A stretch of 24,710 nt of DNA from Chromera velia (Eukaryota > Sar > Chromeraceae): contig JAHBMJ010001957.1 in NCBI GenBank assembly GCA_018398765.1, positions 1-24,710 on the forward strand, written 5' to 3'. Shown piece after piece: positions 8,895-24,710 of this stretch. The position numbers were made by a program, and so were the translations under genes. How positions within the stretch are numbered: the first letter of the stretch is position 1; each line of letters opens with the position of its first letter. The notes below the pieces were generated by a model. That model searched no databases and was not told the DNA's origin. It worked only from the letters and a program-made list of their open reading frames with translations.

Positions 8895-10130
8895 TCACAA
8901 TCTTGAACGTCTAATGTGTGTTCAACTGTGTTGATGTTTTGATTCGTTACAACAGAATAAAACCTAGAATAAGACACCACAAAGCTTTTCAAATACATGA
9001 GACTTACGGTACGTGTGCTGCCATTGCAGCTTGGCGCTGCCAATATATAGTGCAAACTATATAACTAGCTATATAATCATATGAGTAACTTCAACCTGTG
9101 TTAATCAGAATCTTAATCTTTTATCATTGTACAAAAAATTTTGTTGCTTAGTCTTTTATAGTTTTAAGAATCATTGCTACGTCTATTCTTGGTTATATTA
9201 CTAGAATCTAAGTCATACGTTCGGTAATTCAAAAAGATTATATTTGATGATCGCATACGATCCTTAACATAATTATAGTAGCAAACCAATATTTGGTAGT
9301 GGACTGCTGGGACTCCCTACTAGTCCTTAGGGACTCTCAGAACATGAAATCCTATATCGTATCCTATATTCTATCCTGGCAGTTTGATTAATTTCTAAAT
9401 CAATTTAAAGATAATTTGAATAAAAAAGTTAGGCCATATACCAAACCTTTAATACTAGCTTTAATACTTATATTGTAGAAAAAGAATTTGATTTAAATAT
9501 AAAGGGGGAATGCATTTTGAGATCTGTTCCTAGCACGTTCACCTTATTTTGGTGCTTCCATTCCTCTATATAACACTGTAACACATCTGGCTACATTATA
9601 ACATTCTAGGTTCTACTCGATCAGTCTTTTACGGTTCAGTCGTATTTCAGTCGTCCATGAGAATGAGTATACTGCTGATCGAATCCCCCCATCTCTCCCC
9701 CTTCATCGAAGTGGCCTCGCATCATTGAGTTGCATGCCCTTGATGCTACTAGCCCTGATGCACGCACTTGCTGCTAGACTTGCTGCTTATAGGTGGGCAA
9801 CTTATGATTTAAATATAATGAACTTCATTTAGAAATTAAAATTAAAATATATATAGTGAACAATTTTAGTTATAATTAACTTACACTGCCAGTGATGTAC
9901 AAGGTTTTTGTTTGAAATGACTTTCTTTACACAATTTAGTCAGACAAATGAGTGATTGAAATCACAGACAATTTTTTTTACTAGTAATAGTAATTTTAAG
10001 ATAAATGTTTTTAAATCTTTCTAACGTGGCAGGCCGCAGCATGCCCGGTACGAATCTAGGTACGAATAAACATTTGTTTCAGACTTTCAGTACTTTGTTT
10101 TATGTATAGTCACATATTGTTGAAGATTTT
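8895..10130. other. AT-rich, gene-free, CTAG-rich island
   Basis: About 1.2 kb of strongly AT-rich DNA with frequent stops in all frames. By eye I count about ten CTAG tetranucleotides, roughly three times what the base composition predicts. Short local echoes occur (TCCTATATCGTATCCTATAT at 9350; GGGACTC repeated near 9310-9340). No terminal inverted repeats or coding frame could be recognised. It resembles the island at 21780-22640 in composition and CTAG density. Confidence 0.55.
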
Positions 10131-10658: not shown

Positions 10659-13600
10659 CTGCAAGAAAATGAAGAAAACGCAGGATGCCGTGCTTCATTT
10701 CAGATGTTCTCTGTTCGTGGGGGAAAGCAAGAATGCAAAGCAGAAATAGAGGCAGGCATGCGGGCACTGAATGCAAACACGGGGGCCCTCTCTTCCTCCC
10801 TCCCTCGCCCTGTCGCTTCCTTCCTCACAAAAGGAACCGGCTGGACACGCCTATGATCGATTGCCTCTGTCCCCTCCCTTTCTAAAAGAAAAGGACGCCA
10901 ACAAAACGCAAAGCTCTGGAAAGAAATTAAGGAAAAATGGACTCCACACGCCCTTACTGACTATGAGGACGGTTTCGCTCTCGTGTTTCGAGGAGCGTCT
11001 CTGTCCCATTTCCTTCAACAGCCCGTCCAGTCTCTGTCTCTGGAGTTTGTGTTTCTGCCTCAGGTCTTCCTTTTGATCCTCTTGGGGTTCTTTTTGTTCC
11101 CCAAAACCCCAGTGGCGGTCTGCAAGCGACACACACAGTGCACAGAGACAGACAGACGCATGCATGCATGCATGCATCCATCCATCCATCGTCACTCGGA
11201 CATACACGTGGGAGTGATAGGACATGAACGAAGACATGTGAAGAACGGTGTTGGAAAAACAAAGCTGGCGGAAAAGGAAAAGAAAAATCTGGCTCTCTCT
11301 GCTCATTCCTTCGTGCACTTGAGAGCAGCCCTCTTCCCTCCTGACCCCTACCCACCCCTCCCCAACACCCTCCTCCCTTCGAACATCCCCCCCCCCTTCA
11401 CTGACACTGAGGGTATTTCTTCTTGTGGGGGTTCAGCACATCCAACTTGAAGAAGTCCATCCCGAGGGGTCTAAGCGGCTCCTCATCTGAACGCGTTCAC
11501 AAACAAGACAGGAGGGCATGCACAAAGACAGGAGACAGTCGAGGAGGACGGAAAAAGGAAATCCAACTTCTGTACGGCTGCACAGACCTCAAAGAACCGG
11601 AAGGCAATTCGCTGAAGGACTCAGCCAAACAAAACCGACGGACGCTCCTCCCCCCCCCCCCCCNCCCAAAACCCCAGTGGCGGTCTGCAAGCGACACACA
11701 CAGTGCACAGAGACAGACAGACGCATGCATGCATGCATGCATCCATCCATCCATCGTCACTCGGACATACACGTGGGAGTGATAGGACATGAACGAAGAC
11801 ATGTGAAGAACGGTGTTGGAAAAACAAAGCTGGCGGAAAAGGAAAAGAAAAATCTGGCTCTCTCTGCTCATTCCTTCGTGCACTTGAGAGCAGCCCTCTT
11901 CCCTCCTGACCCCTACCCACCCCTCCCCAACACCCTCCTCCCTTCGAACATCCCCCCCCCCTTCACTGACACTGAGGGTATTTCTTCTTGTGGGGGTTCA
12001 GCACATCCAACTTGAAGAAGTCCATCCCGAGGGGTCTAAGCGGCTCCTCATCTGAACGCGTTCACAAACAAGACAGGAGGGCATGCACAAAGACAGGAGA
12101 CAGTCGAGGAGGACGGAAAAAGGAAATCCAACTTCTGTACGGCTGCACAGACCTCAAAGAACCGGAAGGCAATTCGCTGAAGGACTCAGCCAAACAAAAC
12201 CGACGGACGCTCCTCCCCCCCCCCCCCCNCCCCCTGACGGACCCCGTCTCTTCATCGCGACGACCTTCAGACCCCTCAGAGGAGATCCCACCAGGTCCAG
12301 CACGACAAGGAAATTCGGTTCACCGCACTCACGCAACCTGAAACAAAGTGAATTGGATGATAAAGAAAAGAAAAAAAGAAGCTTGTAGATCCGAGCCTCA
12401 GTCTCGTGAGTCAGGTCACAGGAGCAGAAGCAATGAACCAACGAAACCGGAAACGCCCCTAAAGGGTACGACCCCTGAAGAAGGACTTCGTCACATTGTG
12501 CCAACACCTCTTTCTTCTGTTCGCTCAGTCGCTTCTGAAAAAGCATATCAGTAGACGCTAACAGAAGTCCACCCTATTCCTGCACAGTGTATCTTCCGAG
12601 TAGGCCAACGCGTTCGGACAGCTGCAGTACAAAATCAGAAGATCTCTTCGCGAAGGAAAACACCTTAGCGTCAAGCATGGCGCATTTCAAGCCTGCACGA
12701 GAAAGCCCCTCGTGTTGCAGACAAAATTCACGACGCAAAGTCCTCAAAGAAGAGTGCAAATCAAAACAGAAGAACTAATGCCCGACTAACCATTGAGAAG
12801 GAATTCTCAAACGCGGCTGAGCAAGTTCCCCCATACCCTCCCTGCAAGAAGAACAGCACATACGAATCTTGCCGAGGAAGAAACAGAGAGCGAGACCGAC
12901 CCTGCCACAACAGAAGACTTTTGTCAACGCACTCAGCAGAAATTCCATCATCTATCTGTCCTGTTCCCTGCTTCCCTACCTGCACACAGACGGATCCCAC
13001 TCCCAGAACGCGCAGTTCTCCACAGCACTCAGCGTCTCACCGTCCGCCCCGACCACCCGATCCGAAGCCGTCGCATTCCACACGCGCCCTGCAGTCAAAT
13101 CATAACACACGGAAAAGACCGGTCAACCAGACGCACATGGGTCCATCAAAGCACAGAGGGAGCTCGAAAAGCACTTCCTCCCGATCGGGAACGGGTTCTG
13201 CAATTCAACTGTCGCTCCGAATTAAATCATTGGCAAAATCAGGCTAGGATCTGAAAGAGAGCAAGAAAGAGAGGTACACGGACATCCAAACAAATTACCC
13301 AAGAGAAGAAGAAACAACACAGAAGATACGGAATCGCGAGACGACCTCACGGCTCTTCTTGGCAAACGAAATGCCGATACTCCTCCATCAACTCTGATGC
13401 TACCGAAGCATTGCGCTCTCTTCCTCTCTGATGTACAGACAGACCAAGACAGAAAGAACACGAGAATTCCGAAGACTCCCAAAACAGAAACTCCGAAAAC
13501 AAAGAAAAGAAATGCAGAGAGAGCGGACTCACCCAAGGATCGCCCGTTCAAGATCACCTCCCCCACAGTCAGAACTCCCGCGTCTCCTGTAGCCACACGC

Positions 13601-14537
13601 ACAGCGCAATACAGAAGAGAATGTGGCAAGAAGTGCAGAAGGAATCGAAGCACAAGAAAGAGAACCGAAGGAAAACCACGAAGGAAACAAATGCTGCTTG
13701 AGATTCTGGAGCCGGCAGAACAAGCTCCTTTCCTCTTCTCTGACCAAGGGACACATTTCCTGTTTTTGCCGATTCTCTCCCTTTCCTTTGTCGCCACATT
13801 TCTGCTTCCTTGCTTCCCTCCTTGCCTTGTGTCTTCCCCCTTTTCTCCTTTCATTCCTCTCTTTGAAGCTGGACCAATAGTACAAAACCCACCGTCCGAC
13901 GGCAGAAAGTCTTCAGGGAACAACTGCAAGAAGAAGGCAGCTTCTCGCCTCCACGCTTCTCCAGTCACTAACTCCTTCCGACCTCTGCGTAGATCTCCCC
14001 TCCCTTCTCCCTCCCCCCCCGCAAAGCAAGTGTCAAATTCCAACCCCCACCAAGTTGGTCCCCCCCTCTCATGGAAACTCCTCTCGATCACGCTTCCGTC
14101 CTCTTCCTCCCTCTCATCGTCCAGAGCCCTCTTCGAAATCCCCTGATCGACCGTCTCCTCCTCTTTCTCTTTGCCCCCCTTCATCATCCACTCCATGTTC
14201 TCTGGAGACTCCGGTAACTGTAACCGCTCTCCTGAAGGAACACAGATGCAGAGAGATAGATAGAGAGAAATGATGAAGGGAAAAGGAGCCATGCAGAAAC
14301 AGACAGAAAAAAGGATTACCAGACGCAGACTCGGTTGATTACTTTCATTCCCACTGTTTCATTATCAGCACACAGAGACAAACACACATTTCCACACAGG
14401 AGTCACCGGACAGAGGCACAGACAGGGACACGAGAAAAGATCAACGAGGAGAAAAGCAACGTAAGAGCATGCGTGTCGTTTGTGCACGGTCCCCTTCTCC
14501 AAATTAACTCTCTTGCAGTCCAGCCCGCCGGTAAACG

Positions 14538-14709: not shown

Positions 14710-17457
14710 GAAGGAAGGAAGGAAGGAAGGAAGGAAGGAAAGAAGGAAGGAAGGAAGGAAGGAAGGAAGGCCCCCGACCCTCACCTTGTAATCGAATTTT
14801 GTGAATCCAGCCGATCATCCATAGCCTCTCCTGAGAGACGACCACCGAAGATGGATCAGCAGAGACCGGAGACGGCCCCCCTCCTCCCGTCTTCTTCCCC
14901 ACACCCCTTCCCCTGTTTCCCTGCTCCCTCTTTTGTTTCTGCCTCGTCTGCTTGCCTTCTGCTGTCGGCGGTCCCCCCTCTCTGATCTCTCTTTCCCTCT
15001 CTTTCCTCAGTTCTCGGCTGGACAGCCCAAGAGACGGGTATATGTACCCTCGGAGTTTCTCTGCGGTCAATCGCTGAGAGGTTTTGACTGTGGGTGAGTC
15101 GGATCCCATCCGAACCGACAGAATAGAGACAAAAGAGGCGCAAGAAGACACTGACAAGACGGGCAAACCACCGTTCCAATTGTTTGCATCACCACCCCTC
15201 TCCACATGCGCCCCACCCGCCGTTGTCCTTTCAGTCCCTGGCCGTCTCCACGAGGACACGAATTCGCCATCTGCAAAAAGAAGCAGAAGGTCAAACTCAG
15301 TCGCAGCCTCGGGAGGAAACCGGATGTCCAGCTCCCTCTGCCCCTCTCGCCACCTCGCAAGGTATTTCGACGAGGGCGCATAGGACGACAGAGAGGGGAA
15401 TCTCGCAAATCCACTCACAAGACCGTCCAGGTCGAATTCGTACCATACATACTCAGGCACTTGGCCGAAAGCAGAGAAGGTTTTGGAGAGGCTGGACGGT
15501 CTACGAATTCCAGGAAAGAGAACGCTACCCCCGGCGTCCAAACAATCACGTGCGATGTTGTCGATCTCAGCTGAGCGGTTGGCTGCCTTCGATCGCCGGG
15601 GTAGGGGCTCTTCAGCTGGAGGGGGGTCTGGTATGACGCTCTGTGAGATTGCCGTCGATCCCGGAGGACCTTCTGATGATGGGGCAGACTGAACAGGCAT
15701 CACAAAAATCTTGTTGCGGAGGAATGCGGCAGTGATAGCTTTTCGGTTATAGACAGCAAAATTTCGAACGGGCTCCTGTTGTGTGTCCCTGATACCCCCA
15801 ACGAGCTCCTGAAGAAATTGAACTTTTGTTTCGCTTTCGGGGTCCAAAGAAAGGCCTCTGTAATCAACGCCGTAGTATTCTTCCAAGTCCCTCAACTGCT
15901 GCTGATGTCTCATCGATTCCCCCTCTCCCCCGTCGCTCTCCGGGGTCGGAGACATCGAGATGGGCTCCGTCCCTTTCCGTGCGAGTGCCCTCCTTTCGTC
16001 ATCGAACTTCAACACCGAGTCCTGAACGTCAAAGAAAAGCCTGGAGCTGTTGAATTGGGGTTCTCCTGGTTTCTCAACGTCGTCCAGAAGAACCAGGGCA
16101 CTCCTGGGAAGGACAAGTCCTTTGTCCTTTGCCTGGACGGGCACGGCTGCAGGGGGAGAAGGGGAGAGGGGGGAAGAAGGAGAGAGACAGGATCAGAACA
16201 AAACACCACAAAGTTCCACAAGAGAGCAAAGCAGTAGACACAGGCAATCAGCCGTGTGAACCAGGCGTTCTGTGTCTCTCTTTCCCTTACCGTCATTTCC
16301 ATCTCTCCACATGTATGTGCGTTGCTATCGATCCAAACATTTTGCTTGACTACTTGGAATGAGAAAATGAGGGAGCTTTACACTGCACCTTTGTGGCCAG
16401 TGGCATCACATGAGCGGCTGAGTATGATTCCATTACCACTTTCAAATCTCCTGCTGTATTCCTCTATGTCCATTTCACAGCCACAACCCCTCATTTTTTT
16501 TCTCTTCTACTTCTGACTGAATTCTTCCTCAGAACAGACAGAAAGCTGACCTCCGTTGTTGATCACAAACAAGACGGTGCCCCACTTGACCTCCAAGACC
16601 TGGTCATCGAGGGCGACGGAGGCAGACACTAGGCCAGGAACCGGAAGGCTCCACACAGCCGCCCCTCCTCCTGCGGTCCTTGCCCCAGTGTGCGCATACG
16701 AAGGCTTTCGTTCTGCCACAACTGGTGTGCGTGGGGGTAGAGTGGAGCCAAAAGGACGAATGAGGACCCTGGTGACTCTGTTCACGAAGGCGTTGAGCTC
16801 GGCCAGATGCTGCGAGAGGAGAAGGGGGGCACGCAAGCGGAGGCACAGAGGAAAGAGAAAGCTTTGTCGAAATTGAAGCCACTGAAGAGACAGTCTCCTG
16901 CAAGAGCACGCAGCCAGGCAGCTTCCAAGGGACGGCGTTTGATTGAAGGAAGCAATCAATGGACCATTCTTGGGGGGGGAGAGAGCACGCGAAGATCCAA
17001 TGGGAAGGGACACGAAGCAGGTAGACAGAAAGACAGACAGACAGACAGACAGTCAGACAGGAGCTCTAGAGAGACTCACAAAGGTGGGTGAGGAGACGAG
17101 TTGAGCGCTTTGAACACCAACCCCCCCCCCTACATTTGTGCCTGCCACCCACCCACCAACCCACCCACCCAATAATATCTCCAGTTGGGCATTCCGTTAT
17201 CCTCCAGAGGGCCGTCATATTGAGAGGACGGGGGGAAGTTGCGGGCTTCCCCTGTGCCCGGCAGGTCCCCGTGAGACCCCCCAAAGAACCCGTGGAAGGA
17301 AATGAAAGACCCTCCATGTGCCAAAAAGTCAACAACAGACCTGAACACAAACATACAGCAGTCAAGCACAGACACACACACACACACACACACACACACC
17401 ACACATACACACACGTACGGCACGCACGCACTCACGCACACTTGCGCACAGACACAC

Positions 17458-17534
<77 letters not shown>

Positions 17535-20310
17535 TACATACATGCATACAACTCGATCATGCAGGACCAAGCTCTCTTGCCCCATCAGCACGCCGGAAGC
17601 AAGTGCATCGTTCCTGCCGCCTCTGTTCACCAGCGGACTTGATCACTCTCTGTTGACTGTGAGGAGGCTTCCTTCTTTGACTGACCAGGCAACGTGCTCA
17701 GGGGGTCTCTGGGCTTTTGGAGAGTCCCACTCTGTCTCCATTGCTGCACTCACTCACTCAGCATCCATCCATCCATCAGTCCACGGAGGGAGTGGAGTGT
17801 GTGAAAGCGAAGAATTACAATCGCAGAGAAGCAGAGAACATCAAAGTGGCCTTGTTTCTTTTCCGCTTCCATTGAAGCTTCCATTCCTCATGTCCTTCCT
17901 TCTCTGTTAGTGAGAAAAGATCAGATTGAGCAATGAGGAAGAAAATCAAATTCGCTCTCTCTCTGTTTGTTCTACCCTCCCCTCGCCTGCCTCCCAGGCA
18001 ACAATTCAGGAAAGGCTCCCATGCATTCTTCTTTCCCGGTGCCCTCAGAGGGCAGGCCAACCACAAATCTCTATCGTTTATTTTCATACAGAATTCTTTT
18101 TCGTACAGAAAATGAACGCATGCCCCATTCTTCTTTCCCGGTGTCCTCAGAGGGCATGCCAACCACAAATGTCTATCGTTTATTTTCAGACAGAATTCTT
18201 TTTAGTACAGAAAATGAACGCATGCCCCATTCTTCTTTCCCGGTGTCCTCAGAGGGCAGGCCAACCACAAATGTCTCTCTCTCGCTCCCCGATTCCCCAA
18301 CACACAAACACGTGCGTGCACAAAGGCAACAACCTCAACTCACTCAGCCAGTTTGAAGCCCACACACAAGGAGTGATTCCATCTGCACGGAGAAGGGGGG
18401 GGGTTCAAGTAAAGGGTCACACCTGAGAAGGACTTACACACCCCTTTCCAACCACACCCACTCACTATCCCGCCATACGACACAACTCCAAACCTCACTT
18501 CAGATTTGGATTCTCTCACTCATAGAACAAGGCCGCCAAGGCAGACCCACACAGCTGCCAGGTTTTCACGGACATCGCCTAGGAGCAAAAGGAGGAAAAG
18601 CAGCAGAGCAGCGCGTGAACTGAAAAGAAAAAGATCCAACAGAAAACCCCATCAGTCCGCCAAAAGTCTCTCTTCCGACCTGAGCAATACTTCTCGGTCC
18701 ACACGCTGCAATGGAATCCCTGGCAGCCAGCGACGACCGAGGAGGAGACCTCCAGATCTGTTGGGCTGTCGTGTGACTCCGACGCCTCTGCACCCCCTCC
18801 CCCACCCTCTGGATTCACAGGAGGCTCCAGAGACCCCCCCCCTGTCGACTGAGGACCTTGTTGGTCTTGCTGCTTCTTGGACTGGTGCCGAGTGGGGGTA
18901 TTTGGGCCTCGTGGACTGTTGCGAAGGTAGAGCTCGTACAGTCTGTTGAGGGCAACAAGCAGTCGCCAGAGTTCGATGAGGGAAGGACGCACACAGGAAA
19001 TGACAGGAATGGGAGTCTGACTGTTCGTGAGATGTCGCTCGACAGTGTCAATCATCCAAAGGGAATGAGCAATCAACACAGCACCCCTCCTTCTTGCTTC
19101 TAGATCTTTCAGCAACCTAGAGGCGTCAGCGTTGGGCTTTCCCTTCTTTTGTCTCCTCGGGTTGGATTCGTCTGCCTTCTTCTCGACAGCTGCTCTCTCA
19201 AGTGCTGTGATTTTCCCTTCCTCTTCATTAAACCCCTCCCATAACATTTTAAACGCAAAACTCCACTCATTCTTTTTCTTACTGTGAGTGAACACAGAAG
19301 GGAACACAGACGAACGCTCCAACCCGAGGACAGCATCATCATCAGAAGCAAGACCAAGTCTTTTCCTCAACCCGTCCACGTTCTCCTGCACGTGTGGAAG
19401 GAGCTCAACGTCCCACTCACTCAAACTCATCTCTCTATGCCACTGGAGAGCCGACACTGCACACCCGCAGGGCTCCATTGTGACAGCAATCACAGGCCCG
19501 CCTCTTGGGGCCATGCGTTTATAGAGGACGTCAGTGAGGAGAAAGTCAAGAAAGTCATTCAAAGGGCCCCCCCAAAAGTCATTGAAGGGGTTCCGTATGG
19601 CGACTCCACGTCTCTCCAACCAAGGAGGGAGGCCCCCCGCCACGCTGTCTGCACAGGAGCCTGGACCAACGTGAACGACGGCGAAGAGGTCGTGTGCTGC
19701 TGCTCTTTCAAGGAATGCGGAGATGTTCTTGGACCCTGCAGTCTCGAACGTCACCTGTTTCTCGTTCATTTCGGGTTCGTGTTCCCCCCACGGAATCGGG
19801 ATCTGCACAGCGTTGAATGCCGCCCTCTTGGTGTGGAAGAGAATGCGCTCCCATTCGTCTGGAGCTGCAGGGCATAGATCACCAGGGGGGAGACAGGTGA
19901 AAGAGAACGAGACAGGAGAGCCAAGCCACGAGAGGAGAGAGGGAGAACTACTGAAAAGCGAGAGGAGAGACGGAGGCGAGAGAAAGACATCACGACGGGA
20001 GACCCAACACGGGCGAGGGAGACACAAAAGCGACGGTGCCGTGAACAGAGCACCTTGAGGAGGAATCGAAGGGTGGAGCGGGACACTGCTGCAGGCTCGA
20101 CTTACTTGCACGAGTATAGTGTACCCCTGCTGCAAGGACGATCGTGTGCTCTGAGTTGATGCTGATGGACCTGTTTCTGAAGTCTACCTTGATGGGCACG
20201 CCCTCGGGAGTGTCGAAGAGACGGGCCATTCGATTCCGACCTGACACTTGAGGGAGACGAAGTGCAAGGGCGAGCACAAGCACCGCCAACAGCCTCCCTG
20301 CCACCCACAT
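10392..20310 (-). CDS. Membrane-anchored GH35 beta-galactosidase-like protein, probable pseudoenzyme (13-exon model)
   Basis: The model has 13 exons on the minus strand with matching phases: 20310-20106, 19864-18806 (or 19864-19283), 17743-17647, 17340-17169, 16809-16551, 16146-15217, 14231-13893, 13586-13533, 13088-12988, 12901-12864, 12337-12243, 11119-10962, 10658-10392. It sums to 1257 residues, or 1098 with the short exon 2. Order: signal peptide, GH35 barrel, beta-sandwich region, basic segment, membrane helix, short tail. GH35 enzymes release terminal beta-galactose by a two-glutamate retaining mechanism. GGPVIAVTMEPCGC replaces the usual GGPIIAVQxENEYG, so the acid/base Glu is Cys. 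The other barrel landmarks are recognisable (AGVHYTRA, AFNAVQIPIPW, METEW, FHGFFGG). Exons 1, 3-5 and 8-11 are well supported by family match and phase; exons 12-13 and the ends of 2 and 6 are inferred. Confidence 0.7.
10962..11119 (-). CDS. GH35-like gene exon 12: basic, probably helical juxtamembrane segment
   Basis: After acceptor tgtgtgtcgcttgcag it encodes RHWGFGEQKEPQEDQKEDL and then KHKLQRQRLDGLLKEMGQRR, charged and helix-favouring. Two overlapping donors exist: GTCAGT at 10961, which leads in frame into the hydrophobic exon, and the stronger GTAAGG at 10957, which does not. The acceptor and first codons are repeated in the duplicated 565-bp unit near 11684, probably artefactually. This exon has no family match and is linked by phase only. 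Confidence 0.45.
11099..12228. repeat. Exact 565-bp tandem duplication bounded by single N bases in C runs
   Basis: Copy 1 (11099-11663) and copy 2 (11664-12228) appear identical on reading, even across microsatellites, and each is joined through a C run with one N (11664 and 12229). Read as one copy, the minus-strand exon 11 to exon 12 intron is simply shorter. The best explanation is overlapping contig ends that were not merged. Confidence 0.85.
11157..11190. repeat. (GCAT)n/(CATC)n compound microsatellite
   Basis: Four GCAT units run into CATC units. The same sequence recurs at 11722-11755 within the duplicated unit. Confidence 0.85.
12243..12337 (-). CDS. GH35-like gene exon 11: last strand of the beta-sandwich
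   Basis: The acceptor cactttgtttcag leads into LRECGEPNFLVVLDLVGS, matching the end motif LRPGENxLVVLDELGG of GH35 proteins. With exon 10 it reads LPRQDSLRECGEPNFLVVLD. The donor is inferred (CGGG|GTCCGT at 12242) and lies only 13 nt from an assembly N in a C run, so the right edge may be wrong. Confidence 0.6.
12864..12901 (-). CDS. GH35-like gene exon 10: 38-nt micro-exon
   Basis: Between acceptor cttctgttgtggcag and donor GTATGT it encodes GRSRSLFLPRQD. This matches the family strand GPQxTLYVPRSWL. It ends with two nucleotides of a Ser codon that the next exon completes. Confidence 0.65.
12988..13088 (-). CDS. GH35-like gene exon 9
   Basis: The acceptor tatgatttgactgcag continues the split Gly codon as GRVWNATASDRVVGADG, then VENCAFWEWDPS. 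This completes the NGRSLGRVW signature. The donor used is TCT|GTGTGC at 12987, because its phase matches the next exon. A better-looking donor, GCAG|GTAGGG at 12979, has the wrong phase for it. Confidence 0.65.
13533..13586 (-). CDS. GH35-like gene exon 8: 54-nt micro-exon with NG-x-x-LG motif
   Basis: The acceptor gtgtggctacag and donor TTGG|GTGAGT enclose DAGVLTVGEVILNGRSL. With the next exon it reads ILNGRSLGRVW, matching the conserved GH35 C-terminal signature VWVNGRNLGRYW. Phase fits on both sides. Confidence 0.75.
13893..14231 (-). CDS. GH35-like gene exon 7: C-terminal beta-sandwich
   Basis: The acceptor ctgtgttccttcag and the donor GACG|GTGGGT fit the neighbouring phases. After an acidic stretch it encodes RGGPTWWGLEFDTCF and AAFFLQLFPEDFLPSDG, which fit the family pattern GPxFYRxxF ... 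DTFLDL. A second acceptor just before LFPEDF (ttcttcttgcag) would allow a 31-nt exon instead, so the left boundary is uncertain. Confidence 0.55.
14537..14770. repeat. 234-nt purine-only tract (GAAA, GA and GGAA repeats)
   Basis: Blocks of GAAA, then GA, then GAAA, GA and finally GGAA units, interrupted by a single C at about 14642. It lies in the exon 6-7 intron of the GH35-like gene, on the pyrimidine side of the transcript. The Lys/Glu- or Leu/Ser/Phe-rich frames through it are spurious. Confidence 0.9.
15217..16146 (-). CDS. GH35-like gene exon 6: middle domains
   Basis: The acceptor ttctccccctgcag joins in phase to exon 5, giving NNGAVPVQAKDKGLVLPRSA, the expected strand after the barrel where GH35 proteins read as x-x-LPxxS. 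About 300 residues follow, including LEEYYGVDYRGLSLDPESE and PEYVWYEFDLDGLVSGFARF. The family match weakens after residue 40 of the exon. Several phase-1 donors lie between 15217 and 15180; the first, GTGGGG at 15216, is used here. The frame remains open into the purine repeat further downstream, but that part is not coding. Confidence 0.65.
16551..16809 (-). CDS. GH35-like gene exon 5: linker and first post-barrel sheet
   Basis: The acceptor ccttctcctctcgcag is strong. The exon starts HLAELNAFVNRVTRVLI, equivalent to the helix LRxLxAFLNRxxPAL that closes the barrel in GH35 proteins. It ends KWGTVLFVINNG, equivalent to GFLFVxNY. The donor is GGAG|GTCAGC at 16550, leaving one nucleotide. Confidence 0.75.
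17028..17059. repeat. (GACA)n microsatellite
   Basis: About seven tetranucleotide units in the exon 4-5 intron of the GH35-like gene, the same motif as the array at 4501-4599. Confidence 0.85.
17169..17340 (-). CDS. GH35-like gene exon 4: end of the barrel
   Basis: The acceptor is tgtttgtgttcag and the donor TGG|GTGGGT. It encodes SVVDFLAHGGSFISFHGFFG, matching the GH35 block that usually reads LAxGASxNFYMFHGGTNFG, then QYDGPLEDNGMPNWRYYW, matching YDYDAPLDEAGxxTPKY. Asn and Phe of the GGTNFG signature are replaced (GGSHG). Confidence 0.75.
17371..17550. repeat. (CA)n/(TG)n tracts with TACA interruptions
   Basis: Two long alternating purine-pyrimidine tracts (about 17371-17400 and 17451-17550) separated by ~50 nt, within the 306-nt exon 3-4 intron of the GH35-like gene. 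They start about 30 nt upstream of the exon 4 acceptor. Confidence 0.9.
17647..17743 (-). CDS. GH35-like gene exon 3: nucleophile region
   Basis: A 97-nt exon after gagtgagtgcag. It encodes METEWDSPKAQRPPEHVAW and ends at donor AGA|GTGATC. The glutamate before Trp falls where GH35 enzymes have the nucleophile (M-x-T-E-[FWY]-W), and the distance to the FHGG motif in exon 4 is about 46 residues, as in human GLB1. The normally following G-W-F-D-x-W-G is not conserved. Phases fit on both sides. The acceptor lacks a good pyrimidine tract, so the left edge is less certain. Confidence 0.6.
18025..18276. repeat. Minisatellite, 102-bp unit, about 2.5 copies
   Basis: Units begin at 18025 (partly), 18127 and 18229 with ATTCTTCTTTCCCGGTG and are about 95% alike. 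It lies in the exon 2-3 intron of the GH35-like gene. Because 102 is a multiple of three, the plus strand stays open through all copies, but no start or splice context makes it a gene. Confidence 0.9.
18806..19864 (-). CDS. GH35-like gene exon 2: core of the barrel with the altered acid/base site
   Basis: The acceptor ctatgccctgcag at 19865 restores the codon split in exon 1, giving TRATPDEWERI. The family pattern continues: AFNAVQIPIPWGEHEP, HVGPGSCADSVAGGLPPWL (usually RIGPYICAEWxxGGLPAWL) and GGPVIAVTMEPCGC (usually GGPIIAVQxENEYG). A strong internal donor, GTAAGA at 19282, would end the exon at 19283 in the right phase, with near-canonical spacing to the nucleophile exon. Yet the frame stays open another ~700 nt, with protein-like sequence (AVLIAHSLWMIDTVERHL), to a phase-compatible GTGGGG donor at 18805. 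Both ends are possible, perhaps alternatively spliced. Confidence 0.7.
20106..20310 (-). CDS. GH35-like gene exon 1: signal peptide and barrel start
   Basis: The ATG at 20310 gives a textbook signal peptide, MWVAGRLLAVLVLALALRLP, with likely cleavage after QVSG. A TTG 11 codons upstream keeps the frame open but is not a credible start. The first family block ends in LAAGVHYTRA, matching the strand-1 motif of GH35 barrels. The donor is GTAAGT at 20105, leaving one nucleotide of a split codon. Confidence 0.8.
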
Positions 20311-20922
20311 GATCAATCTGCGTTTCACACTTCGCTTTTCCAAAGGTGGATTCCGCAGGAGGCGAATTGAACTGCCGGCAGTCTACTCCGAGAGACGGTC
20401 CCGTCTCCAAGCTACACGTGCACGCACACCCGACATGCACTTGACGCAGGGCAACATTCCAGTAGAGAAAGGCAGTGTAGCGCTTCAATCATGCAGAGAA
20501 GTTTGCAGGCAGCTAAATCCATTGCAGAACATGGACCAAGAAGAAAGCTTCCCTGTCGCTCAAAGAGGAGTCGATCAGGCCAGCGGCAACTGCGATGATG
20601 GCGACGCCCTTTGTCGCGGGCGCCGCCGCTGCGCAGCTATATGGCCCGGGGGCGCCACGTACGGGGCGCCGCCGTCTCGCAAACAGAAATTAAATTTGGC
20701 GTCCACTCTGAAAAAGAACCGTAGCAAGTGCAGTTGGGTCACCCTCGTAGTTTGGCGTAGTTTAAACATTTAGTGCGCAAACTCAGACCTCTGTGGCATT
20801 TGTATTCCTACAGGCTTCTGCTGTCTGTCCGTTGCTGAGTGTGAAGAATTACCTGAGTTCATTAAGTGAGAGACGCCGCCCGGAGACGCCTGCAACTTGA
20901 TTTAGACGAACGTATCTGTCTG
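20311..20922. promoter_or_regulatory. Divergent intergenic region between GH35-like and FKBP genes
   Basis: The start codons of two oppositely transcribed genes lie 612 bp apart, so this interval must hold both promoters. It contains a very GC-rich patch at 20617-20675 with three GGCGCC palindromes, two of them as GGCGCCGCC (20619 and 20665), and CCCGGGGGCGCC between them. TTTGGCG occurs at about 20694 and 20751, resembling the E2F core motif. No TATA box is evident. Binding by any factor is inference. Confidence 0.45.
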
Positions 20923-21360
20923 ATGTCCCTCTGCCCTGCGTCCCTTCTGTTTCTTCTTCTGTCGCTCAGCCTTCTGACCATGTCGTCTGGTCTTGCCCTG
21001 CCAGGTTACAAAACCACTTACGAGGTTTTGAAAGCTGGAGAGGGTTCTGCCACCGTTCTGAAGGGGTCGACTGTGACCGTCCACGCGACAGGAAACGTGG
21101 AAGACCCCCCAAAGAAATTTTGGTCCACAAAGGACCCGGGCCAGAAGCCGTTCACGTACAGTGCAGGTGTCGGGGGTGTCATCACGGGGTGGGACCAGGG
21201 CTGCCTTGGCATGAAGGTCGGGGAGGTCCGCAAACTGCGCATACCCCACGACGAGGGCTACGGTTCCCGGGGTTTTCCTGCCTGGGGAATTCCCCCCATG
21301 GCAACCCTTCTCTTTGAAATTGAGGTGTTGAAGATCGCTGCAGGAAGAGAAGAGATGTAA
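20923..21360 (+). CDS. Secreted or ER-lumenal FKBP-type peptidyl-prolyl cis-trans isomerase
   Basis: A single-exon gene of 145 residues; an in-frame GTG 19 codons upstream is not a credible start. The ATG at 20923 opens a signal peptide, SLCPASLLFLLLSLSLLTMS, with cleavage likely around Ala25. Residues 48-138 form one FKBP domain: TVHATG, KKFWSTKD, KPFTYSAGVGGVITGWDQGC, GMKVGEVRKLRIP, GYGSRGF, IPPMATLLFEIEVLKI. FKBPs speed proline isomerisation during folding; with a signal peptide and no KDEL-like end, this one probably acts in the ER or secretory route. Pocket residues equivalent to FKBP12 Phe36, Phe46, Val55, Ile56, Trp59, Tyr82 and Phe99 are kept, but Tyr26 is Ala and Asp37 is Trp. It is divergent to the GH35-like gene. 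Confidence 0.93.
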   Translation: MSLCPASLLFLLLSLSLLTMSSGLALPGYKTTYEVLKAGEGSATVLKGSTVTVHATGNVEDPPKKFWSTKDPGQKPFTYSAGVGGVITGWDQGCLGMKVGEVRKLRIPHDEGYGSRGFPAWGIPPMATLLFEIEVLKIAAGREEM

Positions 21361-23542: not shown

Positions 23543-24019
23543 CTAGCGACCGATCGGTGACTCACGGAGCAATCCCAAGACAGCCCCATATGCCTGCCTT
23601 CCGCGATTATAGATCTGATTTGACCTGTTCTGAAGATTTGCCGCACCACCTTGAATATTTCCCAGGTGGGCACCGGCCAGGGGACGTCTAGACGCAAATC
23701 GAGAAGGACCCCTGCCCTGACGAAACCGAAACCGTGCAAGACGACGCCCTCTCGCAGTTTTACTCTTTGTCTGAGCGATTTCTTGCAGCATCTGACCCCC
23801 TAGGGTGACCACGTTCTGCTGAATCTGGTTGGCTCTGGCCCGTGCATTTGGCACGCTGCTTGGAAAATTTGCAAAACGGGTGCCTGTGGGCCTTCCGGTG
23901 AATGCAAAGCGAGAAGAAGGTCGGGAACCTGCGAAAGTTGGCCCAAATCGGCGAAACGGAAAGCTCAAAACGGTAGAGACCGTCAAAAGGATCACAAGGA
24001 AGGGAAGGAAGCACTTCAT
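23543..24019 (-). CDS. Small secreted arginine-rich basic protein, unknown function
   Basis: A 158-residue, single-exon ORF. The ATG at 24019 is preceded by AAGCCACCATC, a good eukaryotic start context, and opens a clear signal peptide, MKCFLPFLVILLTVSTVLS. The mature part (about 139 residues) has by count 23 Arg, 2 Lys, two Glu, no Asp and no Cys, so it is strongly cationic. The first third has spaced Phe/Arg/Gly/Ser-Pro motifs (FPFRRFGPTFAG, SSRFAFTGRPTGTRFANF), a middle Gln/Asn-rich helix (RANQIQQNVVTLGG), then RRLARFRFRQGRG and a C-terminal NQIYNRGRQAYGAVLGLL. I recognise no family. It could bind polyanions or be antimicrobial or matrix-related; this is inference. The frame is open upstream to about 24208, but without a better start. 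Confidence 0.7.
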   Translation of the reverse strand: MKCFLPFLVILLTVSTVLSFPFRRFGPTFAGSRPSSRFAFTGRPTGTRFANFPSSVPNARARANQIQQNVVTLGGQMLQEIAQTKSKTARGRRLARFRFRQGRGPSRFASRRPLAGAHLGNIQGGAANLQNRSNQIYNRGRQAYGAVLGLLRESPIGR

Positions 24020-24710
24020 GATGGTGGCTTGGATCAGAAGAGAGACACTAGAGAGTCGCAGTCGGAGTCGCTGCTGCAGAGAGGGGTCAGAGTGCTTAAG
24101 TCGACTCTGGCGCAAAACACTTTGAGGACTTCCCAGCAGGTGCTTTGAATGTACGAGTGAGTCAACAGTCCATCGATCTGCAATAGTAGTTTTTCTCAGG
24201 GTACGCACGCACCAAAGCCATCAACGAACTGGGCAGGTTATAGGCTTCATTTGATGAAGTCTTTTGGATGTGCTAATCAATTCGGATGAAGGAATGGGAG
24301 TTCACGCGGAGCCAGACCAAACCAGACAACGGAGCGGGAACGCAGGTTCAGTTGGAACGAACTGCACGTGCGCACGTGCGCAGGCCGGGGTCGGGCCCTG
24401 AGGCGTGAGCGCGACTGAACGCCGATTGCGTCACGCAGAGAATCGTCGCGGACGGAGAATCGGCAAGAGCCGAATAATGATAAAAAGGAGACGGGAATAG
24501 CAAGGAGAGACAGCAAAGAAATAGACTAACAAGAAGAGAGCAAGCTGTAAAAGCGAGAGACGGCAAGCGAGACGGCCTAAAAGAGTGTTGAAAAGTGAAT
24601 CGGTGCATGTTTTTTTTTTACCTACGAAAAACCGGAATTGGTGGAGGGGTAAAAATGAAAGAACGACCGAGGATTTCGCGTTTGAGGGACCGAACTGACG
24701 GAAGTTGCGG
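24020..24710. other. Upstream flank of the basic secreted-protein gene
   Basis: It would hold that gene's promoter. A palindromic CACGTGCGCACGTGCG patch lies at 24364-24380, with overlapping CACGTG-type E-boxes. No other gene is supported. Confidence 0.35.

Follow-up and report, generated by a model that had tools for sequence, protein, structure and literature searches.

A strongly diverged GH35 paralog in the alveolate Chromera velia is probably a glycosidase pseudoenzyme

The window analysed here, a 24,710-nucleotide stretch of the alveolate Chromera velia (contig JAHBMJ010001957.1 of assembly GCA_018398765.1, positions 1 to 24,710), carries on its minus strand a gene of glycoside hydrolase family 35 (GH35). 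Its sequence suggests that this gene is an intact, strongly diverged GH35 paralog encoding a glycosidase pseudoenzyme, probably inactive as a beta-galactosidase, a reading to which we assign a probability of about 0.6. The predicted protein would combine a GH35 barrel, a plant-like layout, a hydrophobic leader and retained fold residues with the loss of the acid/base glutamate and of the three other sugar contacts that could be tested. Such a protein would no longer hydrolyse beta-galactosides and may, once secreted or within the endomembrane system, have a binding or scaffold function that perhaps relies on its insertion and C-terminal part, perhaps in partnership with the ordinary paralog encoded in the same genome.

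The first-pass annotation of this DNA had claimed that the Asn-Glu pair at the acid/base position is replaced by Pro-Cys in an intact frame, and this is what we find. Within an open frame running from 20183 to 18579, the minus-strand codons 19502–19461 encode GGPVIAVTMEPCGC, which aligns with the GH35 acid/base motif GGPxxxxQxENEYG. In the ungapped alignment the Asn-Glu columns hold Pro-Cys, with the Cys codon (19469–19467) in the acid/base column; MAFFT, given 19 other rows, places a one-residue deletion at the motif, the pair then reading gap-Pro with the next Gly in register. Neither alignment has a Glu in the acid/base column. The Glu two residues upstream is retained, and those phmmer alignments with Protein Data Bank (PDB) sequences that are listed and reach the motif end at the Glu preceding the changed pair or one residue later. 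A sequencing frameshift was considered and rejected, being unlikely because the codon score across the motif (19562–19413) is 0.133 in frame as compared with −0.109 and −0.084 in the other two sense frames. Codon frequencies were learned from 6,252 codons in 27 stretches of this genome that encode kinase domains (3 of 30 loci, containing stops, were excluded), and the in-frame score was matched by 2 of 526 overlapping windows taken from the introns of our own gene model, which served as null comparison here and below.

A search of the genome assembly (177.8 Mb, 4040 contigs, the window being contig C1952) with PF01301 (Glyco_hydro_35) found two places, the window gene and a single paralog; four further weak protein matches had E values of 0.027–0.235, and among the 36 stretches of a contig scan with an exon of the paralog there was no relative. 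The paralog (contig C2122, L011 6472–2363, minus strand; an 840-residue model) matches PF01301 with 229 bits over positions 1–317 and, unlike the window gene, keeps VENEW, CAEW, TYVFWNFHEP and AWTENEQWFG. The two GH35 proteins are 26% identical over 127 residues. The acid/base motif of the paralog is itself interrupted by an intron (LLQ/VENEW; L011 5869–5564, minus strand), and its next intron contains, by eye, repeats of exon-end sequence. The alveolin (IMCp) profile matches this assembly 11 times, in each case above the cut-off, which fits an alveolate, although it also matches one of 14 control genomes, that of a Caulobacter.

Both genes were compared with 43 bacterial domains, drawn from 51 PF01301 matches in 19 genomes; those scoring 135 bits or more entered the alignment, the 8 of at most 41.9 bits being dropped, and the sequence taken for L168, which belongs to the 43, extends beyond its match and contains two stops there. 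The set is biased and gives no unbiased base rate, as the 19 genomes hold 19 of 80 loci found via patterns including CAEW and QxENEY. In this biased set the Asn and Glu of the NE pair and the Glu of CAE are present in 43/43 domains and the Tyr of TYV in 42/43; where all 43 have the acid/base Glu after beta-4, the unspliced reading of the window gene has Cys (or Pro). Galactose contacts of human beta-galactosidase are Tyr83, Glu129, Glu188 and Glu268, Asn187 contacting the 2-OH; Tyr83, Glu129 and Asn187 form hydrogen bonds with the sugar (PMC6566704). All four positions testable in the first barrel half are changed in the window gene and kept in the paralog (Tyr, Glu, Asn, Glu). The equivalent of Tyr83 is Pro, in IPIPWGEHEP replacing TYVFWNxHEP (19773–19802, minus strand); that of Glu129 is Asp, in CADSVAGG replacing CAEWxxGG (19632–19655, minus strand); Asn187 and Glu188 correspond to Pro and Cys. 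With Pro, Asp and Pro for Tyr83, Glu129 and Asn187, the −1 subsite is not that of a competent GH35 enzyme. Over the 37 columns up to the motif that are at least 85% conserved in the references, the window gene keeps 17 and the paralog 31. Fold residues retained in the window gene (alignment columns) are H16, R19, W25, W46, H49, P96, G105, G106, P108 and W110.

Since the protein appears to have lost its acid/base residue together with the sugar contacts that could be tested, both beta-galactoside hydrolysis and galactose binding in the old site would be unlikely. Indeed, the acid/base mutant E176Q of a GH35 glucosyltransferase has less than 0.4% of its activity left (PMC8861115). The proposal that the protein binds galactosides through the old site is not supported because the sugar site itself is altered. 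The proposal of a pseudoenzyme fares better, since the acid/base Glu is absent from a predicted protein whose frame is intact, although it is a prediction from sequence and the splice may differ. A binding or scaffold role, which we infer, would be the most probable remaining use.

Membership in GH35, also proposed earlier, is borne out. PF01301 matches the open frame with 69.2 bits (E 6e-19, profile positions 22–147), and the spliced model, whose comparison with this profile had been suggested as a check, with 96.7 bits over positions 2–147 (cut-off 27); both matches cover the first half of the profile. In phmmer searches of PDB sequences GH35 enzymes rank first, the closest solved structures being GH35 beta-galactosidases. 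For the second barrel half, two tomato GH35 sequences (beta-galactosidase 4, E 0.00095–0.00096) are the sole PDB matches up to E 10, and our own bacterial GH35 profile gives just 3.7–5.6 bits. PF21467 (BetaGal_gal-bd) scores below its cut-off of 27.3 over exons 7–9, with 14.2 bits for the full model and 19.8 for a trimmed piece, from which a stretch of exon 7 was omitted and to which the last exon was added; the paralog reaches 24.1 bits. The trimmed C-terminal piece found no match in the PDB. An AlphaFold2 model of exon 2, built with 45 bacterial rows, has a mean predicted local distance difference test score of 57, with blocks up to residue 130 at 61–96 and the remainder mostly lower; the strand V124–M129 is visible in it, the geometry of the site is not. 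The MAFFT alignment made for this prediction shifted the NE columns to another place and was therefore left out of the motif comparison. Fold searches put GH35 on top, as expected from a GH35 input alignment, with GH5 and beta-amylase rows lower. In a plasmid tblastn search with the window exon, none of 47 records covered 80% of the query; among the ten records listed, nine are named beta-galactosidase or GH35 and one is without annotation.

Extending the gene on the basis of splice signals, reading frame and similarity to GH35 proteins of plants gave a model of ten exons on the minus strand (20310–12242, about 8 kb, 1,399 codons, no stop) that ends at an assembly gap. The first-pass annotation had confined the feature to 19283–19864; a donor at 19282 (ACA/GTAAGA) is good by eye, but the coding signal runs on to about 19113 and the model to 12242. 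Exon 1 (20106–20310, donor GTAAGT) encodes a hydrophobic N-terminus, signal-peptide-like by eye, and beta-1 (HYTR), and moves the start of the PF01301 match from position 22 to 2. Exon 2 (18641–19864), identified by Pfam, PDB matches and codon score, holds the first part of the barrel, the altered motif, a long insertion and CQGFHC; its 3′ end is uncertain, with 18641, 18680 or the earlier donor at 19282 as candidates. Exon 3 (28 nt, 18551–18578) was placed by frame and by-eye resemblance only. Exon 4 (17169–17340), with FHGFFGG and SSQYDGP, completes the barrel and matches tomato beta-galactosidase 4 (E 0.00096), a match that the start of exon 5 (16551–16809) extends, the rest of that exon lying past the barrel. 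Exon 6 (14785–16146), without a Pfam match, covers a middle region resembling plant GH35 proteins by eye. Exons 7 (13533–14231, possibly containing another intron), 8 (12980–13088) and 9 (12787–12841) carry the sub-threshold PF21467 match, and the last exon seen (12242–12327) has a poor acceptor (ending GTGAG) and does not reach a stop codon before the gap (N) at 12229. Support for the model is accordingly unequal, coming from Pfam in exons 1 and 2, from tomato beta-galactosidase 4 in exon 4 and at the beginning of exon 5, and from the sub-threshold PF21467 match in the C-terminal part.

Several observations weigh against an intact pseudoenzyme with a binding role. The binding role is itself an inference; exons 3 and 6–10 rest partly or wholly on by-eye resemblance; and two donors (GTTGGA or GTCGGA; GTCAGC) are poor, as is the last acceptor. 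Codon scores are intron-like at 19112–18879 (0.007, matched by 164 of 408 windows) and 18761–18681 (−0.026, 329 of 635), where coding is predicted from homology or the open frame alone, and amount to −0.003, −0.004 and −0.044 in exons 5, 8 and 9. The in-frame score of exon 2 is positive in all eight blocks of 50 codons, yet tops the three sense frames in only six. Moreover, the gene is a prediction from the genomic DNA of a single genome. The patchy codon signal, the lost catalytic residues and the reliance on genomic DNA would all suit a recently formed pseudogene that is still open by chance. We nevertheless regard this as unlikely, given ten exons modelled without stop or frameshift and a deep divergence from the paralog in which many fold residues have been kept. 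A further point against the pseudoenzyme is that a Glu nucleophile may persist in WTEKY (18701–18687), which, together with the Glu retained two positions upstream of the lost residue, would be compatible with an active glycosidase or transglycosidase that dispenses with the usual acid/base, for instance on activated glycosides. Plant myrosinase is a glycosidase of this kind, lacking the usual acid/base and acting on activated glycosides. However, the position of the nucleophile is ambiguous: HMMER aligns the Asp of RDFW (18671–18660) with the tomato nucleophile Glu, by eye WTEKY fits MWTEVW equally well, and a profile alignment of the region (43 bacterial domains plus the paralog) scores too low to place the residue. 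As no candidate acid could be placed and the equivalents of Tyr83, Glu129 and Asn187 are lost too, we consider an active enzyme improbable, and its more specific form, a retaining GH35-fold enzyme that would use Cys or no enzymic acid in a −1 subsite rebuilt for a non-galactose or activated substrate, highly improbable.

Alternatively, the mRNA may skip from 19484, 19464 or 19457 to 19281, 19277 or 19271, which would bring an Asn-Glu-Trp near the strand and yield a protein closer to the ordinary enzyme. A different exon supplying the motif had been named as the finding that would overturn the earlier claim, and our enumeration of 25 donors and 72 acceptors gave 938 combinations with a readable frame. 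The outcome is mixed: in 16 of the 846 splices that keep GGPV some Asn-Glu falls within 30 residues of it, but in none of the 846 does Glu, Asp or Gln precede that pair within the same distance. An acceptor-like tract (0.80 pyrimidine) lies upstream of 19281, and the paralog, whose motif reads ENEW, has an intron exactly at LLQ/VENEW. The splice products VTMEPCGCANEW (81.1 bits), VTMEPCGKKKNEW (80.4 bits) and GGPVIAKKNEW (19484 to 19277; 79.4 bits) score above the read-through (78.2 bits). These scores do not discriminate, however, because 585 of the 938 splices exceed the read-through, the best with 81.4 bits. In GGPVIAKKNEW the Asn-Glu stands at 8 residues as compared with 10 in the consensus, two short; its donor is GTCACA and its acceptor ends in AAG, and the other donors, GTGTGC and GTGTCG, are likewise poor. 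A scan of the three minus-strand frames of 19520–17200 for Asn-Glu-aromatic, or for Asn between two residues of the Glu/Asp/Gln type, found none but KKNEW at 19271. The stretch that would be skipped (19463–19284) has coding-like codon use (0.130, matched by 1 of 484 intron windows), as has 19280–19113 (0.214, 0 of 503), and the equivalents of Tyr83 and Glu129 would remain lost under any such splice. We therefore judge such a transcript rather unlikely. Since the paralog intron splits LLQ/VENEW, a past change at the splice junction would nonetheless be a reasonable origin for the loss of the motif.

The 3′ end of the gene borders a 568-base stretch that is tandemly repeated with 100% identity (11100–11667 and 11665–12232), with a single N near the end of each copy (11664 and 12229); this repeat is probably an assembly artefact that hides the end of the GH35 gene. 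Another tandem repeat, of 102 bases (about 2.5 copies, 94–96%), lies within an intron of the model at 18024–18279. Near the start of the gene and divergent from it, a frame for an FKBP-type peptidyl-prolyl isomerase is found at 20866–21360 on the plus strand (PF00254, 83.6 bits). A small Arg/Phe/Pro-rich frame on the minus strand (23543–24220), with a leader-like stretch by eye, matches Antimicrobial10 below threshold (17.8 bits, cut-off 25). The G+C content falls to 0.336 at 9001–10000, as compared with 0.537 and 0.524 in the adjacent kilobases.

Loss of the catalytic acid from a glycosidase fold is known from Klotho and the chitinase-like proteins, which belong to other families and for which binding roles have been shown experimentally. 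Tomato beta-galactosidase 4 (PDB 3w5f), the solved GH35 relative of the second barrel half, carries, where the two align, the Tyr and Glu that contact the sugar, and is without the long insertion of the window gene. Among the entries listed by our searches of the literature on GH35 pseudoenzymes and on Chromera glycoside hydrolases or beta-galactosidases, we recognised none as the window gene. GH35 genes without the motif are, however, already published in flax, where 2 of 43 genes lack GGP..Q.ENE[FY] and nine more deviate (PMC3673811). Flax LuBGAL26, 35, 43 and others, as well as AtBGAL18 and OsBGAL16, lack the motif or its glutamates and stand beside canonical paralogs, as here; these are plant proteins, and LuBGAL43 (107 residues) and AtBGAL18 and OsBGAL16 (fewer than 500 residues) are short as compared with the 1,399-codon model (PMC3673811). 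To these the window gene adds an alveolate member, for which the label beta-galactosidase, assigned from a family match, would probably mislead. It would represent a GH35 paralog in which the fold has been kept and the motif lost, and the genome supplies a built-in control in the form of the canonical sister gene.

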